From: a virus
Length of the DNA stretch: 36,237 nt
Virus record (IMG/VR): IMGVR_UViG_3300036766_000102
Location: 1-36,237 of that record
Reading direction: 5' to 3' (one strand)
This document shows, in pieces, positions 4,130-32,017 of this stretch. Positions within the stretch are counted from its first letter, which is position 1; the number at the start of each line of letters is the position of its first letter. Both the position numbers and the translations under genes were made by a program. Under the pieces are notes generated by a model. That model searched no databases. It worked only from the letters and a program-made list of their open reading frames with translations, and was not told where the DNA came from.

Positions 4130-4327
4130 CTAGAAGTAGGTGATCACGCGCACGAAGCCGTCGGCCCCGTTGCCGCCACCGCCAGAGCCGGTGCTGGCAT
4201 CGGTCGCCGCCCCGCTGCCAGTGGCACCAGCCGCCTCGACGCCGAGCGCCCACCAAGTGCGCCAGTCGCGGTAGCGCAGATGAAGGGCCACGACCTTGCC
4301 GCCCACGATGTCATCAGCCGAGGTCAA
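4130..4327 (-). CDS. Gly-rich tail accessory protein candidate with DWRTW motif
   Basis: The frame ends GFVRVITYF, typical of Gly-rich phage tail proteins. It contains VALHLRYRDWRTWWALGVE followed by a Gly/Ser/Ala-rich tail. The start is uncertain: TTG 4327 overlaps the end of the fibre gene and gives 65 residues; GTG 4306 gives 58. Position right after the fibre suggests a tail tip or fibre-linked role. The DWRTW element is shared with the 3597-3782 protein. Confidence 0.6.
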   Translation of the reverse strand: MTSADDIVGGKVVALHLRYRDWRTWWALGVEAAGATGSGAATDASTGSGGGGNGADGFVRVITYF

Positions 4328-7300
4328 TCGCAACGATGAGGGCGGGGGTCGTCGCTGATGCCTTCTTCGTGATGTTGCCCGTTCCATAGTCGCGCGCCGC
4401 TGAGAGCTTGTAGGTGTGTGCGGCAGCCGAGGGCTGGACGTATACCATCGCCGTCAACGTGATGCCATGGTTCGCCGGGGTGCCGACGGGGCCGTAGGTG
4501 GTCTCTAGGGTGGTCGACCCTTCGCGGATCGCGAGCAAGACGCCATCGTTCGCCACGCTCGACTGCAATAGACAATGGCCCATGATCAGATAGGTGTGTC
4601 CAGTCACGGCGGTGAATGTGACCGTCATGCTGGTCAAGTCGGTCAGCGCAGTAAACGTGCCTTGGTCCGACTCGGTTGCCGAGAGACCTGTATAGACCTG
4701 CGGCATCGCGTGCTTGTGGTCTTCCATCGCGGCGTTCGGCCCGGTCCCGATCGCTGCGGCGTCTCCGAAGGCCTGCGTCGAGGGCGTCCCGGCGCCGGTC
4801 GGGTGGACGTGGTCACGGCGAGCTGCCGTCGTCGCGACCCCCGCTGCCGCCGTACCGACTGCGGCAGGAACGGTCGCGTCGAACGCGAGGATCGTGGCAT
4901 CGGAGCGAACCAGCGTCGTGGCGACGCCAGCGGCAGCAGCCGTGCCGAGCGCGATGGTGTTCGTGGCGAAGGCTTCGCGGGCATGCTTGTGGTCGCGCCG
5001 CGCGGCGACTGTTGCCGTTCCGACGGCGGCCGCATCGCCCACGGCGCTGGTGGTCGGGTTCGTGACGTCGAAGGCCGCGATCGTGGCATCCGAGCGAATG
5101 ACGGTCGCCGCCGCTCCGGCAGCGTTCGCGGTGCCGAGGACGACCGCGGGAGTCGCGAACGCGGGCACACCGGGGTCGGCCGGCATCCCATGCTTATGGT
5201 CGCGATGGGCTGCGGTGAGAGCCGTTCCTGCTGCGGCAGCGTCGCCGAAGGCTTGCGTCGAGGGAGCGGTGCCGTCATGGACCGCCTTCCATGAGGCCGT
5301 CGTTTCGCCGTTGACCACGCCCAGGACTTCGAGGATGTTCGCGGCCGGGACGGTGATGGCGAGCCTGACCGCGGTATCTGCCGCCGAACCGACCGCGAGG
5401 TCACCAGCCGCATTCCAGAGCGTGTCGTGCGCGACGTGCGCCGCTTCATGCGCGTGGACGTGGTCGCCCCGTGTGAAGGTATCGGCGGTGCCTGTTGCCG
5501 CAGCGGTTCCCACGGCACTCGGAGAGGCAGAGGCGACCCACTTCAGGCCCGATGCAGCCGCGGCATCGGCCATCAGGATCGTGTCATCAGCGCCCACGGT
5601 GACGATGGACGGCGTGTTGTCTGCCGTCGCGGAGATGAGGTCGCCCTTGGCGTTGACGATGGTGGAGGCGATAGCACCGACGGAAGCTGCTGATGGAGCG
5701 GCGGGCATGGCGTGCTTATGGTCTCTGCGAGGGGCGACGGTCGCCGCTCCCACTGCGGCAGCATCGCCGAACGCCTGCGTGCTCGGGTCCGTCGCGTCGA
5801 AGGCCAGGATCGTGGCGTCCGTCCGAACCGCGGAAGATGCTGCACCCGCGGCGTTCGCCGTTCCGAGCGTCAGGGCAGGGACCGCATAGGCCACGGGGTC
5901 GGCCGGCATCCCGTGCTTATGGTCGCGTCTCGCTGCTACCGCGGCAGCTCCCGTCGCAGCGGCATCAGCGAACGCTTGCGTGACCGGAGCGGTCACATCG
6001 AACGCGAGGATGGTCGAGTCGCTGCGGATGACGGTCGAGGCAGCTCCGGCCGCGGCTGCCGTACCGAGCACGATTGCCGGGGTCGCGAAGTCCGGGGCGT
6101 CGGCCAGGTCCTTGCGCTCCAACCGCACGTCCGTGACGTACACCGAACCTGAGGCACCCGCGGCTTCGGCGTCACGTTTGAACCCGACCCGCATCCGCAG
6201 ATAGGCCGGTTGCGACCCTGTTCCCCCGTCAGCCGTGGCACTCAAGGTTGCGGCGACTCTGGACATCCCCGCGGGCAGGGAGACCGTGGTGGCGGAGTTC
6301 GATGCGGTGGCGGTGCCGAGCACGACGGATTGCGCGAAGCCGCCGCCATCGACCATCGTGAAGTTGCCATCGACCACGGTCGATCCGTCCGTCGGATAGG
6401 CCGGTTGCGTCGCTGCGGTGGTTCCGCTGACGTTCGGCGAGACCCAGTAGATGTGTCCGTTCGCTGGACTCGGATAGACGGCGGCGACAAAGCCCAGGTA
6501 CCAGGCCGGGACACTCGGGTGGGCAGCGGTGAACTCGACCGCAAGCGCCTCCAGCCGAGAGACCGTCTGCACGGCCGGAGGCCAGACCTCGGAGGCCAGC
6601 CCGCATGGCATCCACGTCACGGTGCCATCGACCACGAACCCGGCAACGGCCCCCGCGACCCAATCTGGTTCGGCCGCTCCCGTAGTGCCGGTGTAGGAAA
6701 CCCAGAGGTTGGCATCTGCGGTCGGTTTCAGATATTGGACGCGGTTCGTGTTCGCGACCCCCATCGCGGCGGCCTGCACCGCGCCATAATCCGTGAGTGC
6801 TGACCAGCCCTCGACGTAGACGAGTTGCTGGACCGCGCTGAGGTCGGAGAACTGCGGCTGTGATGTTCCTGCGGGTGCGTCCATCACATCCAGCGCCAGC
6901 GTGACCTTCATGAGGTTCGGCGAGCCATCCGGGGTCACGGCAGCAGAGAAGGCCAGGGCGACGGCGTCTTTCAGCGCGGGACGGATCGCGACGAGCTGCT
7001 CGAGGTACGCCTCATCACCCGCCGCTCCGGGACGTATCTCGAACCTGACCCCGCCGGCGACGGAGGGATCAACGAGCACGTCCGGGCTGCCCGAGACGCG
7101 GCGGAACGAGAACCCCGGCAGCGGGTTGTTGTCATCGTCGATGGGCTCCAGGGGGTTTTCCGGGAGTTGGCCGAAGTCGCCGTTGTACACACCGTGGCTG
7201 ATGAACCGAGCAAGCGAAGGGCCGAAGCCCTGCTCACCCGAGGCGCCCTCTTCGGAACTCAGCGTGCCGCCGAGTTCGGCGACGTACTCCGCCGGTCTGG

Positions 7301-7346
7301 TCGCCCCTTCGTGGGCTCGGCGGGAGGATTTGATGGTGAGGCTCAT
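4314..7346 (-). CDS. Tail fibre / receptor-binding protein with HxH repeats
   Basis: A 1010-residue protein; ATG 7346 overlaps the previous stop (ATGA). Residues 1-400 are a virion-attachment and beta-structured region (MSLTIKSSRR start, Trp-rich YWVSPNVSG segments). From about 420 to 880 repeated modules occur (TPAVVLGTA, ATVIRSDATI, TQAFGDAAA, RRDHKHGMP). Each ends in a DHKH or DHVH motif; the first His of each is at residues 476, 543, 629, 717, 786, 846 and 877. The last 120 residues form a C-terminal beta domain (GLSATESDQGTFT start). HxH motifs in T4 gp37 bind iron in a needle; a similar trimeric fibre is inferred. Likely the main host-recognition protein. Confidence 0.8.
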   Translation of the reverse strand: MSLTIKSSRRAHEGATRPAEYVAELGGTLSSEEGASGEQGFGPSLARFISHGVYNGDFGQLPENPLEPIDDDNNPLPGFSFRRVSGSPDVLVDPSVAGGVRFEIRPGAAGDEAYLEQLVAIRPALKDAVALAFSAAVTPDGSPNLMKVTLALDVMDAPAGTSQPQFSDLSAVQQLVYVEGWSALTDYGAVQAAAMGVANTNRVQYLKPTADANLWVSYTGTTGAAEPDWVAGAVAGFVVDGTVTWMPCGLASEVWPPAVQTVSRLEALAVEFTAAHPSVPAWYLGFVAAVYPSPANGHIYWVSPNVSGTTAATQPAYPTDGSTVVDGNFTMVDGGGFAQSVVLGTATASNSATTVSLPAGMSRVAATLSATADGGTGSQPAYLRMRVGFKRDAEAAGASGSVYVTDVRLERKDLADAPDFATPAIVLGTAAAAGAASTVIRSDSTILAFDVTAPVTQAFADAAATGAAAVAARRDHKHGMPADPVAYAVPALTLGTANAAGAASSAVRTDATILAFDATDPSTQAFGDAAAVGAATVAPRRDHKHAMPAAPSAASVGAIASTIVNAKGDLISATADNTPSIVTVGADDTILMADAAAASGLKWVASASPSAVGTAAATGTADTFTRGDHVHAHEAAHVAHDTLWNAAGDLAVGSAADTAVRLAITVPAANILEVLGVVNGETTASWKAVHDGTAPSTQAFGDAAAAGTALTAAHRDHKHGMPADPGVPAFATPAVVLGTANAAGAAATVIRSDATIAAFDVTNPTTSAVGDAAAVGTATVAARRDHKHAREAFATNTIALGTAAAAGVATTLVRSDATILAFDATVPAAVGTAAAGVATTAARRDHVHPTGAGTPSTQAFGDAAAIGTGPNAAMEDHKHAMPQVYTGLSATESDQGTFTALTDLTSMTVTFTAVTGHTYLIMGHCLLQSSVANDGVLLAIREGSTTLETTYGPVGTPANHGITLTAMVYVQPSAAAHTYKLSAARDYGTGNITKKASATTPALIVAIDLG
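4700..5930 (-). repeat. Seven degenerate repeats coding HxH modules of the fibre
   Basis: Seven modules of about 31-88 codons each share the coding pattern GDAAAxGxAxxAARRDHKHxMP and VLGTAxAAGAAxTxIRSDATI. Spacing between HxH motifs is 67, 86, 88, 69, 60 and 31 residues. The DNA copies are similar but not identical, so the duplication is old or under diversification. Such arrays allow in-frame recombination that changes fibre length. Confidence 0.8.
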
Positions 7347-8569
7347 CCGGCCGTCCCCGCGAGACGCTGCGCGGAGGTGGGCAGCGCCGCCGTGCCGTTG
7401 ATACCCACGCCAGCCGAGGTGAGCGCGGAGACGATGCGCGCGGTGCCCGAGGGCGGCAGTCCGCCGAAGTACACCTCGTGACGGTGGGCACCATTCCCGC
7501 CCACGAACCAGGTCCGCACGCTCGACGCGCGGAGGCTCGACGCCGCGAGGCCGAGGGCGGTGTTCGTGAGCGTGAAGGTCGAGAGCGCATTCCAATGTCG
7601 CGCGGAACCGGAGGCCGGGGCGTAACACGCAGCTCCCTCGACCTCGAAGTGCCCTCTCACCACGGCGTCCTTGTGGTCGATGAGGTAGGCCCGGCCGTAG
7701 TTCGTCGCGGCGGTGAGACTCGTGGCGGAGGGCTGATCGACGATGCCCTGGCGGACGCCGTACTTCGTCTGTGAGGCGGTGTCGTTGACCCAGACCGAGT
7801 TGGCCTTGGACGAGCCCCGGACGTAGACGCTGTTGATGATCGCCGACTCGTCGTACTCCAACGTCAGCTTGTCGGCCGTGATGAGTCCTGCGGAGGGAGC
7901 CGCGTCGGTGATGTTCGCCGGTTGGGCGTAAGTCCAGGCTGAGAGCTTCAGGATGAACAGGTACTTGGCCGGGATGGTGAGGTAGCCGAAGGGGGTGTTG
8001 GCGATGCCCTGAGCACGGCTCACCAGTTGCTCGACGATCGAGCGGGCTGGTATCCCCTGGAACGCCAGCGGCGCCGCCGTCGAGGCCGGGATGACGGTCG
8101 AGTCCGAGGGGCAGGACGCGGGCATCGGGAAGCCGATGTAGCCCATGATGTTCGTCAGGATGTCCTGCACCGTGCGGTTGATGAAGGTCTGCCACAGCGA
8201 CACGAGCACCCGGCGGTCGAGGGCGAGGCTGTAGTCCGTGCAGATGCAGCGCACCGACAGGCCGCCGGGGCCGAAGCCGGGCACCAGTTCACGGGACACG
8301 AGGTAGCCGCCGAAGAGCAGCGGGCCGACGGGGGTGCCGGCGCGGAAGTCCTGGAACGTCATCTCGGCTCCCGCAGGCAGGGCATAAGCCAAGGCCGGGT
8401 CCTCATGCGTGAAGGTCAGCGTCGAGGCGGCGTTGATGCCGTTGTCGGTGATCTCGATGGAGTCGAGGGGCACGCCGTTCTTCGCACCGGCGATGGGCGA
8501 GATGATGTTGCGGCCGGCGACAGTCAGGGTTGCGATCGGGGCGGTGAGACCCTGCGGGATGACGGCCAT
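7343..8569 (-). CDS. Minor tail protein / tail hub candidate
   Basis: A 408-residue protein between the preceding 201-residue tail protein and the fibre. It starts MAVIPQGLTAPIATLTVAG and has features of actinophage minor tail proteins that form the hub or distal tail, such as SIEITDNGINAASTLTFTHE near the start and a segment RTVQDILTNIMGYIGF in the middle (a common element of phage hub proteins that process a field between two barrels). Its stop overlaps the fibre start. Function by position and general likeness, not by a catalytic motif. Confidence 0.65.
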   Translation of the reverse strand: MAVIPQGLTAPIATLTVAGRNIISPIAGAKNGVPLDSIEITDNGINAASTLTFTHEDPALAYALPAGAEMTFQDFRAGTPVGPLLFGGYLVSRELVPGFGPGGLSVRCICTDYSLALDRRVLVSLWQTFINRTVQDILTNIMGYIGFPMPASCPSDSTVIPASTAAPLAFQGIPARSIVEQLVSRAQGIANTPFGYLTIPAKYLFILKLSAWTYAQPANITDAAPSAGLITADKLTLEYDESAIINSVYVRGSSKANSVWVNDTASQTKYGVRQGIVDQPSATSLTAATNYGRAYLIDHKDAVVRGHFEVEGAACYAPASGSARHWNALSTFTLTNTALGLAASSLRASSVRTWFVGGNGAHRHEVYFGGLPPSGTARIVSALTSAGVGINGTAALPTSAQRLAGTAG

Positions 8570-30844: not shown

Positions 30845-31182
30845 CGCAGCACCGCTTCCACGGTCCCGTCCCACCGGAGCGCCCGTTCCACGAGCGTCAG
30901 GGCTTGGCCGGACTCGACCATCTTCCGGGTCACCCGCAGGACCCGCCAGCCCAGCGCCGCGGCCTCGGAGAACTTCGCGGCGTCCGACTCGATGCCGGGG
31001 CCGGTGGTATGACGGCCACCCGTCCACGTCCCTCCGTCGACCTCGACGGCGACCCTGCGATCCGGCCAAGCCAGGTCGAACCGCCACCGCCTCACCGGGT
31101 GGAAGCGGACCTCCCGCTCCGGGATGAGGCCGACGGCACGGAGCTGCCACGCCAGAGTCTCGACCAGCTCGGAGACGGTCAC
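30841..31182 (-). CDS. Vsr/DUF559-like endonuclease
   Basis: A 113-residue protein (GTG 31182, GTGA overlap). RFDLAWPDRRVAVEVDGGTW contains the Asp ... Glu-x-Asp set of the Vsr/DUF559 branch of PD-(D/E)XK enzymes, followed by GWRVLRVTRKMVESG, the typical end of this fold ('GwrvlRvtw..v'). In phages such small nucleases take the place of RusA-like junction resolvases or nick DNA. It follows the replication-initiator-like gene, which fits a role in replication or recombination. Confidence 0.75.
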   Translation of the reverse strand: MTVSELVETLAWQLRAVGLIPEREVRFHPVRRWRFDLAWPDRRVAVEVDGGTWTGGRHTTGPGIESDAAKFSEAAALGWRVLRVTRKMVESGQALTLVERALRWDGTVEAVLR

Positions 31183-31799
31183 GACGGGAGCCCCGGCTTC
31201 CCGGTGACATCGGGGCGGACGCCGTGCTTCGTCATCTTCTCGTCGAAAGGCGTCTTTCCATTCGTCCCCGACGCCGCAATCGGCGGCGCGGCGGGCTCGG
31301 ACGGGATGGGCTTGGATGGGCTTGTACGGGATGGGCTAGGCGGCGCGGCGCGGCGTTTCGCCGCAGAACGCCGCAGGACCTCTTCATGAGCCTTCGCGAA
31401 GGTCGCCGGAGCCCCTTCGATGCCGTACACGATGTCCATCCAGCCGGGCGGGCAGGGGTAGCGCGAGGGGTAGGCGCGGCGCTGGAAGCTCTGGTACTGC
31501 CACCAGTCCGAGATCTGGATGTAGGGCTCGCCGCGGCGTTCGTAGAGCCGCAGCGACCGCTGGGCGGCCAACTCCTGGAGCGCCGCCGCAACCTCCGCCA
31601 CGGTCACGTCGGGCATCTTCGGGAAGCACAGGCCCCGGATGTCCTGCGCGTCGCCGTGGAGCCGCCCTTGGTCATCGGCCTGCACGATGAGGCGGGGCCA
31701 GAGGGCATTGGCCATGATCGAGCAACGGGAGAGCGTGCGGCTGTCGCACATCTCGGGGTAGATGCTGCGCGGGCCAGTTGTGCCGAAGGTCTTCGGCAT
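31179..31799 (-). CDS. Replication-initiator-like winged-helix protein
   Basis: A 206-residue protein; ATG 31799 overlaps the previous stop (TGATG). The N-terminal 120 residues (MCDSRTLSRCSIMANALWPR, IVQADDQGRLHGDAQDIRGL, VAAALQELAAQRSLRLYERR, GEPYIQISDWWQYQSFQRR) match the winged-helix domain at the start of many phage replisome-organiser proteins ('ll..aDdeGrl.gdp..ik....p....v...l..L...gli..Ye..g..yiqi.nw...Q'). A Pro/Ser linker and short tail follow; no helicase-loader domain. Iteron-like repeats lie in the linker part of the gene (31305-31339), as in lambda O. Confidence 0.75.
   Translation of the reverse strand: MPKTFGTTGPRSIYPEMCDSRTLSRCSIMANALWPRLIVQADDQGRLHGDAQDIRGLCFPKMPDVTVAEVAAALQELAAQRSLRLYERRGEPYIQISDWWQYQSFQRRAYPSRYPCPPGWMDIVYGIEGAPATFAKAHEEVLRRSAAKRRAAPPSPSRTSPSKPIPSEPAAPPIAASGTNGKTPFDEKMTKHGVRPDVTGKPGLPS
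31305..31339. repeat. Iteron-like 10-bp direct repeats, origin candidate
   Basis: GATGGGCTTG at 31305-31314 and 31315-31324 and GATGGGCTAG at 31330-31339. They lie in the Pro/Ser linker part of the initiator-like gene. Direct repeats inside an initiator gene are the layout of lambdoid origins, but low-complexity coding can also explain them. Confidence 0.4.
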
Positions 31800-32017
31800 C
31801 AGGCCGCCGCCCGCTTCCGGCGCATCCACTCGGCGTTGTACGCCCGCCGTTTCTCCGGGGTCGGGCACTCGTGCGCGAAGCCGAGGTGGTTGTATCGGTG
31901 CCCGCCGATGACCTCTGCGCGCTGGCCGCAGCCGGGGCACCACTCCTTGGCGTGGAAGTAGCAAACGCGGCGCGGAGTCTGGACAGGGCAGCCCGGTACG
32001 GCGCAGGTGGGGGTCAT
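31799..32017 (-). CDS. Small zinc-finger-like protein
   Basis: A 72-residue protein (ATG 32017, ATGA overlap) with TCAVPGCPVQTPRRVCYFHA, EWCPGCGQRAEVIGGHRYNH and HECPTPEKRR: six Cys and several His suggest two zinc sites. The end is strongly basic (AEWMRRKRAAA), so nucleic-acid binding is plausible. Confidence 0.7.
   Translation of the reverse strand: MTPTCAVPGCPVQTPRRVCYFHAKEWCPGCGQRAEVIGGHRYNHLGFAHECPTPEKRRAYNAEWMRRKRAAA

Follow-up and report, generated by a model that had tools for sequence, protein, structure and literature searches.

Genomic Setting of the Fiber Gene

The window, meaning the whole stretch of DNA that was analyzed, is a 36.2-kb phage contig from a virus record, with a G+C content of 68%. 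On its minus strand, from 22.9 down to 16.3 kb, it encodes the small terminase, large terminase, portal, protease and HK97-type capsid protein, in that order. The capsid gene is followed by tail-region genes without database names and then by a tail-fiber-like gene at 4314–7346. This is a single open minus-strand frame of 1010 residues beginning with an ATG at 7346; the plus-strand translation of the same segment is full of stops. An earlier note on this DNA had the extent of the gene right and did not give its strand, which is minus. The placement of the gene, in a phage genome, downstream of the head and tail genes and on the same strand, fits a phage tail fiber. Its ATG overlaps the stop of an unnamed upstream gene of 408 residues (7343–8569, minus strand). 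That upstream gene has relatives in G002, G003 and G004 and is kept beside other fiber regions in phages with related heads. In the four capsid relatives whose fiber region was read (G002, G003, G004 and G005), there is no DHxH fiber among the frames of at least 330 residues around the expected position.

The fiber protein has no family match in Pfam, PHROGs or NCBIfam. Searches of the named phages, both near-DNA and protein, returned no match to the window or to the fiber, and low-complexity filtering probably hides the repeats from such searches. A near-identical phage has been assembled elsewhere, since the capsid protein at L071 5388–6611 is 99% identical to that of the window; it lies on a 9.1-kb contig that ends short of the fiber. 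The rest of the window includes an RNA ligase domain (PF09414, E = 1e-16) at 749–1456 on the minus strand. An exonuclease (phrog_298; 2177–2959) and a replication-initiation-like protein (phrog_1408; 31179–31964), both also on the minus strand, are at opposite ends of the contig.

Modular Organization of the Fiber Protein

The seven DHKH or DHVH motifs previously reported at residues 476–879 are all present exactly there. The first histidine of each HxH is at residue 476, 543, 629, 717, 786, 846 or 877, the last histidine is at 879, and the third site is extended to H-x-H-x-H (629/631/633). Successive spacings are 67, 86, 88, 69, 60 and 31 residues, matching the separation of 31–88 given before. 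The motifs are not a product of composition: 20,000 shuffles of the same-composition protein gave DHxH 0.04 times on average and twice at most, as against the seven observed. They are confined to a 468-residue repeat region that holds 19 of the 27 histidines of the protein. The motifs were said to end repeated modules, and each DHxH does close a module of about 31–34 residues, here called A, with the consensus xxPxTQAxGDxAAxGxAxxxARxDHxH[GA]xPA (also written TQAFGDaAaxGtaxxaARxDHxH[GA]mPA). The account of repeats thus stands, and what it missed is a second, His-less module behind the uneven spacing. This module, B, has the consensus PAxxLGTAxxAGxAxxxiRSDATIxAFDxT. It retains the glycine and aspartate of A, and both histidines of the pair are absent. 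Profile–profile alignment of A with B spans 18 columns (P = 2.4e-5, a value made optimistic by composition bias).

By pattern search, the order of modules is BABA-GA-GA-BABAA, where G is a GDL-type module. All features are on the minus strand. The N-terminal part (residues 1–415; 6102–7346), presumed to serve in tail attachment, is almost an orphan; among viral contigs, L070 alone shows a weak relationship to it, covering residues 178–279. The repeats then begin with B1 (421–452; 5991–6086) and A1 (453–484; 5895–5990; DHKH, His 476/478), followed by B2 (488–519; 5790–5885) and A2 (520–552; 5691–5789; DHKH, His 543/545). Next is the first GDL-type spacer module, at residues 553–607 (NAKGDLISATADNTPSIVTVG...; 5526–5690), and A3 (608–638; 5433–5525; DHVHAH, His 629/631/633). 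The second GDL-type spacer module, at residues 639–691 (AAGDLAVGSAADTAVRL...; 5274–5432), precedes A4 (692–726; 5169–5273; DHKH, His 717/719). The boundaries of both GDL-type modules were set by eye. The B–A arrangement resumes with B3 (731–762; 5061–5156), A5 (763–792; 4971–5060; DHKH, His 786/788) and B4 (793–825; 4872–4970). The series ends with a two-module cassette composed of A6 (826–852; 4791–4871; DHVH, His 846/848) and A7 (853–883; 4698–4790; DHKH, His 877/879). The remainder is a C-terminal domain (884–1010; 4317–4697), a probable beta-rich tip. It is related to segments of other tail proteins, L036, L037 and L038 (phmmer E about 1e-11), in which it lies either at the end or internally. 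Its matches to the PDB were marginal (E about 0.08) and were not accepted, leaving no solved relative.

The uneven spacing of the motifs is explained by what stands between successive A modules. A spacing of 31 is A directly followed by A, 60–69 is one B plus A, and 86–88 is a GDL-type module plus A. The B–A register is fixed. Among 26 B modules in this protein and its relatives, a few of which are near-duplicate proteins, the distance from B to the next HxH module is 32 residues in 24 cases, 29 in the other two, and never anything else. Two of the A modules here have the GDL-type module in front in place of B. A third type of unit, TDITTNNxSTxxHGFxPKAxAPxxGNLNVxGIANxET, precedes A in L096 3876–6173, L097 4623–6998 and L098 3780–5555, where it takes the place of the B and GDL units of the window.

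Conservation of the Histidine Pair

The first relatives had for the most part been retrieved through peptides that themselves contain His, and two tests with less of this bias were therefore added. One used a profile lacking the D-H-x-H columns. It was trained on DHxH modules, and reversed sequences gave no hit at or above 10 bits. At that threshold it found 171 modules. HxH is present in 170 of them; it is in register in 169 and displaced by one residue in the other. The other was a His-blind scan of viral contigs for the codons of TQAFGD[AST]A only. It returned 53 places, with a few contigs appearing twice under different locus ids. Modules were found at 47 of these places, every one of them with HxH at precisely the expected offset; 21 of the 47 entries are on contigs that the His-based searches had not returned. 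The other six places do not have the module's glycine and look unrelated or out of frame. The earlier note would have been undercut by histidines that vary among relatives, and the pair is instead essentially invariant.

The other positions of the motif differ in how strictly they are held. The aspartate ahead of HxH is kept in 45 of the 47 modules, so the histidine pair is the stricter of the two, with two modules replacing Asp and none replacing His. The glycine nine residues before the aspartate is 99% conserved among A modules. The middle position of HxH is free, with K, T, V, A, R, G, L and I all occurring.

Probable Exchange of Modules among Phages

A comparison of module number had been proposed, and among relatives that number varies widely, from one to seven DHxH motifs with this protein included. 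All seven modules of the fiber find their best match in another phage and not in their own protein. Over all multi-module proteins, the best match lies elsewhere in 81 cases and in the same protein in 11, which is indicative only, as there are far more other modules to choose from. The A6–A7 pair behaves as a fixed terminal cassette and recurs in 12 further frames, among which several are near-duplicates. Among bacterial assemblies, mostly MAGs, relatives are present in SAR202, other Chloroflexi, Anaeromyxobacter, Fibrobacteres, Falkowbacteria, Nitrospirae and Gemmatimonadaceae bins. This spread of the module across several bacterial phyla fits an exchange of cassettes between phages.

It had also been suggested that recombination among the modules changes host range. 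From their best matches, the modules look exchanged between phages. The effect on host range is not supported as proposed: the modules look shaft-like, and the copies in this gene have long since diverged; host range more likely resides in the C-terminal domain.

Some module-sharing relatives match PHROGs with the names tail fiber, tail protein, head decoration or virion structural protein, largely outside of the modules. Two A-module relatives, L057 5785–7281 and L062 5740–7503, match PHROG 2647 (head decoration) beside tail-fiber PHROGs, and that name looks doubtful here. In L095 5490–8054, a DHxH-module protein runs into what by eye are two apparent LamG-like domains, a possible carbohydrate-binding tip. 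Proteins of Gordonia phage Yvonnetastic and Methylophilales phage Melnitz-3 match a relative of the module proteins; they were set aside, as they have no A-type DHxH module.

A Proposed Trimeric Fiber with Axial Metal Clamps

The protein has a real and well-conserved modular fiber shaft, which bears out its original description as a modular, fiber-type protein. We interpret it, with a probability of roughly 0.6, as a trimeric tail fiber or fiber-like receptor-binding protein whose A/B-module shaft has putative metal clamps on its axis. Residues 1–415 would attach to the tail, residues 421–883 would form an elongated shaft as a chain of modules of about 32 residues, and residues 884–1010 would be the tip. 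Each A would end in a short strand, probably with both His side chains toward the threefold axis. An Fe (or Zn) ion could then be held by six His ligands, two from each of the three chains, in the manner of T4 gp37 and the R-pyocins. The aspartate ahead of the pair may be a second-shell residue, a possible role suggested by the second-shell residues around the iron of phi11 Gp45. B would be a related module without a metal site, always paired with the following A, and the GDL-type modules would be alternative spacers. By analogy with the solved fibers, as many as seven ions probably lie on the axis of the shaft, and these seven clamps would set the register of the chains and stiffen the shaft.

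A trimer is implied by classical collagen triplets, which occur in the same chain as the modules in the relatives L007, L098, L104, L119, L133 and L180. Structure prediction contributed less. An AF2 monomer of residues 416–1010, made with 24 aligned sequences, had a pLDDT of 42 and was unusable. A monomer of one B–A pair was of moderate quality (pLDDT 71, pTM 0.41) and places the two histidines on a strand that follows a short turn. The model of the pair has no fold match in the PDB, the module has none among solved or predicted structures, and neither the fiber protein nor the module profiles match PDB sequences.

The similarity of the copies, up to 76% of amino acids, might suggest a recent tandem expansion that is confined to this gene and serves no conserved role. 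We regard that as very improbable. The most similar pair has 76% protein identity and only 71% DNA identity, so the silent sites have diverged. That divergence, together with the location of the best match of every one of the seven copies in another phage, contradicts the expansion. A different possibility is that the His pairs sit on the outer face of the shaft and bind a metal or a receptor there, for instance in adsorbing to a metal-loaded surface or a siderophore receptor (a "Trojan horse"), and do not hold the trimer together. Something of the kind has been proposed in general for HxH fibers of marine phages (PMC11705849). It seems improbable here, in that a pair invariant across phages of unlike hosts and located in the shaft, not the tip, is better accounted for by a structural site than by a host-specific contact, and HxH sites already characterized lie buried at the axis (PMC6116203).

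The conservation, being within one sequence family, could also reflect a purely structural role. The Asp and His would then close each module in the trimer by hydrogen bonds and ring stacking, with no metal in the virion. The aspartate is nearly as conserved as the histidines, and the 99% conserved glycine points to structural constraint over much of the module. Against this, two histidines around a free middle position match what is seen in established six-His iron sites, and B keeps Gly and Asp and drops both histidines together, as expected if they are one functional unit. We consider the metal-free version rather unlikely, though the strongest of these three alternatives to an axial metal clamp.

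A broader idea can be put forward tentatively, at less than even odds. There may be a fiber-building code in which the clamp module A, of about 32 residues, is placed after a spacer (B in fixed register, a GDL-type module or another A) and shuffled among phages of several bacterial phyla, with the module count setting both the length of the fiber and the number of clamps. If confirmed, this would be a compact, recurring metal-clamp unit for phage fibers with a simple grammar, and it would make otherwise unannotated fibers of metagenomic phages recognizable. It would also give an estimate of the metal per fiber, here at most seven ions for each trimer, a figure relevant to the debate over phages as iron carriers.

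Comparison with Known HxH Fibers

We found no description of the DHxH or DHVH module in the literature, and block A is not in the protein-family libraries searched (Pfam, NCBIfam and PHROGs). In the solved trimeric HxH fibers and spikes, one iron is held on the axis by six histidines from three chains (PMC6116203), and, as in those iron-binding fibers, the HxH motifs here are conserved within an elongated repeat region. Since there is no sequence homology to a solved member, we class the protein as working like the HxH iron fibers and not as a member of them.

The distal long tail fiber protein gp37 of T4 (PDB 2XGF) also has seven HxH per chain, and its three chains coordinate seven axial irons. 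It differs in having tip gaps of 32, 14, 37, 14, 9 and 9 within a needle, in lacking a DHxH module and a His-less partner, and in having no sequence match to the module; the aspartate ahead of HxH and the motif spacing set the present protein apart. The earlier statement that this is not the T4 layout is therefore right as to the regular module and the His-less partner, neither of which T4 has, and too strong as to spacing, since two of the T4 gaps are in the one-module range. Burkholderia phage E094 gp23 (PMC8174754) likewise has seven HxH in a fiber predicted to be trimeric, but it has a T4-tip-like C-terminal needle and needs a Mu-type assembly chaperone.

In the R1 and R2 pyocin fibers (PMC6116203), HxH from three chains form an octahedral iron site in the shaft, and the fiber is built as a shaft and knob of repeats. 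However, each pyocin chain has a single HxH, and its sequence does not match the module. Alteromonas phage R22Y gp12 (PMC11705849), compared by its description, has six HxH, placed in the shaft part of a predicted trimer and not at its tip; several of its motifs are 22 residues apart, no B-type partner is reported, and its metal is likewise predicted. Gp45 of Staphylococcus phage phi11 (PMC4901313) has an octahedral six-His iron site in the trimer stem with second-shell residues around it, but the site is single and is made by His-X7-His in a helical bundle. Next to these systems, it is the A/B arrangement for which we found no earlier description, while the metal-clamp chemistry itself is probably the one already known in phage fibers.
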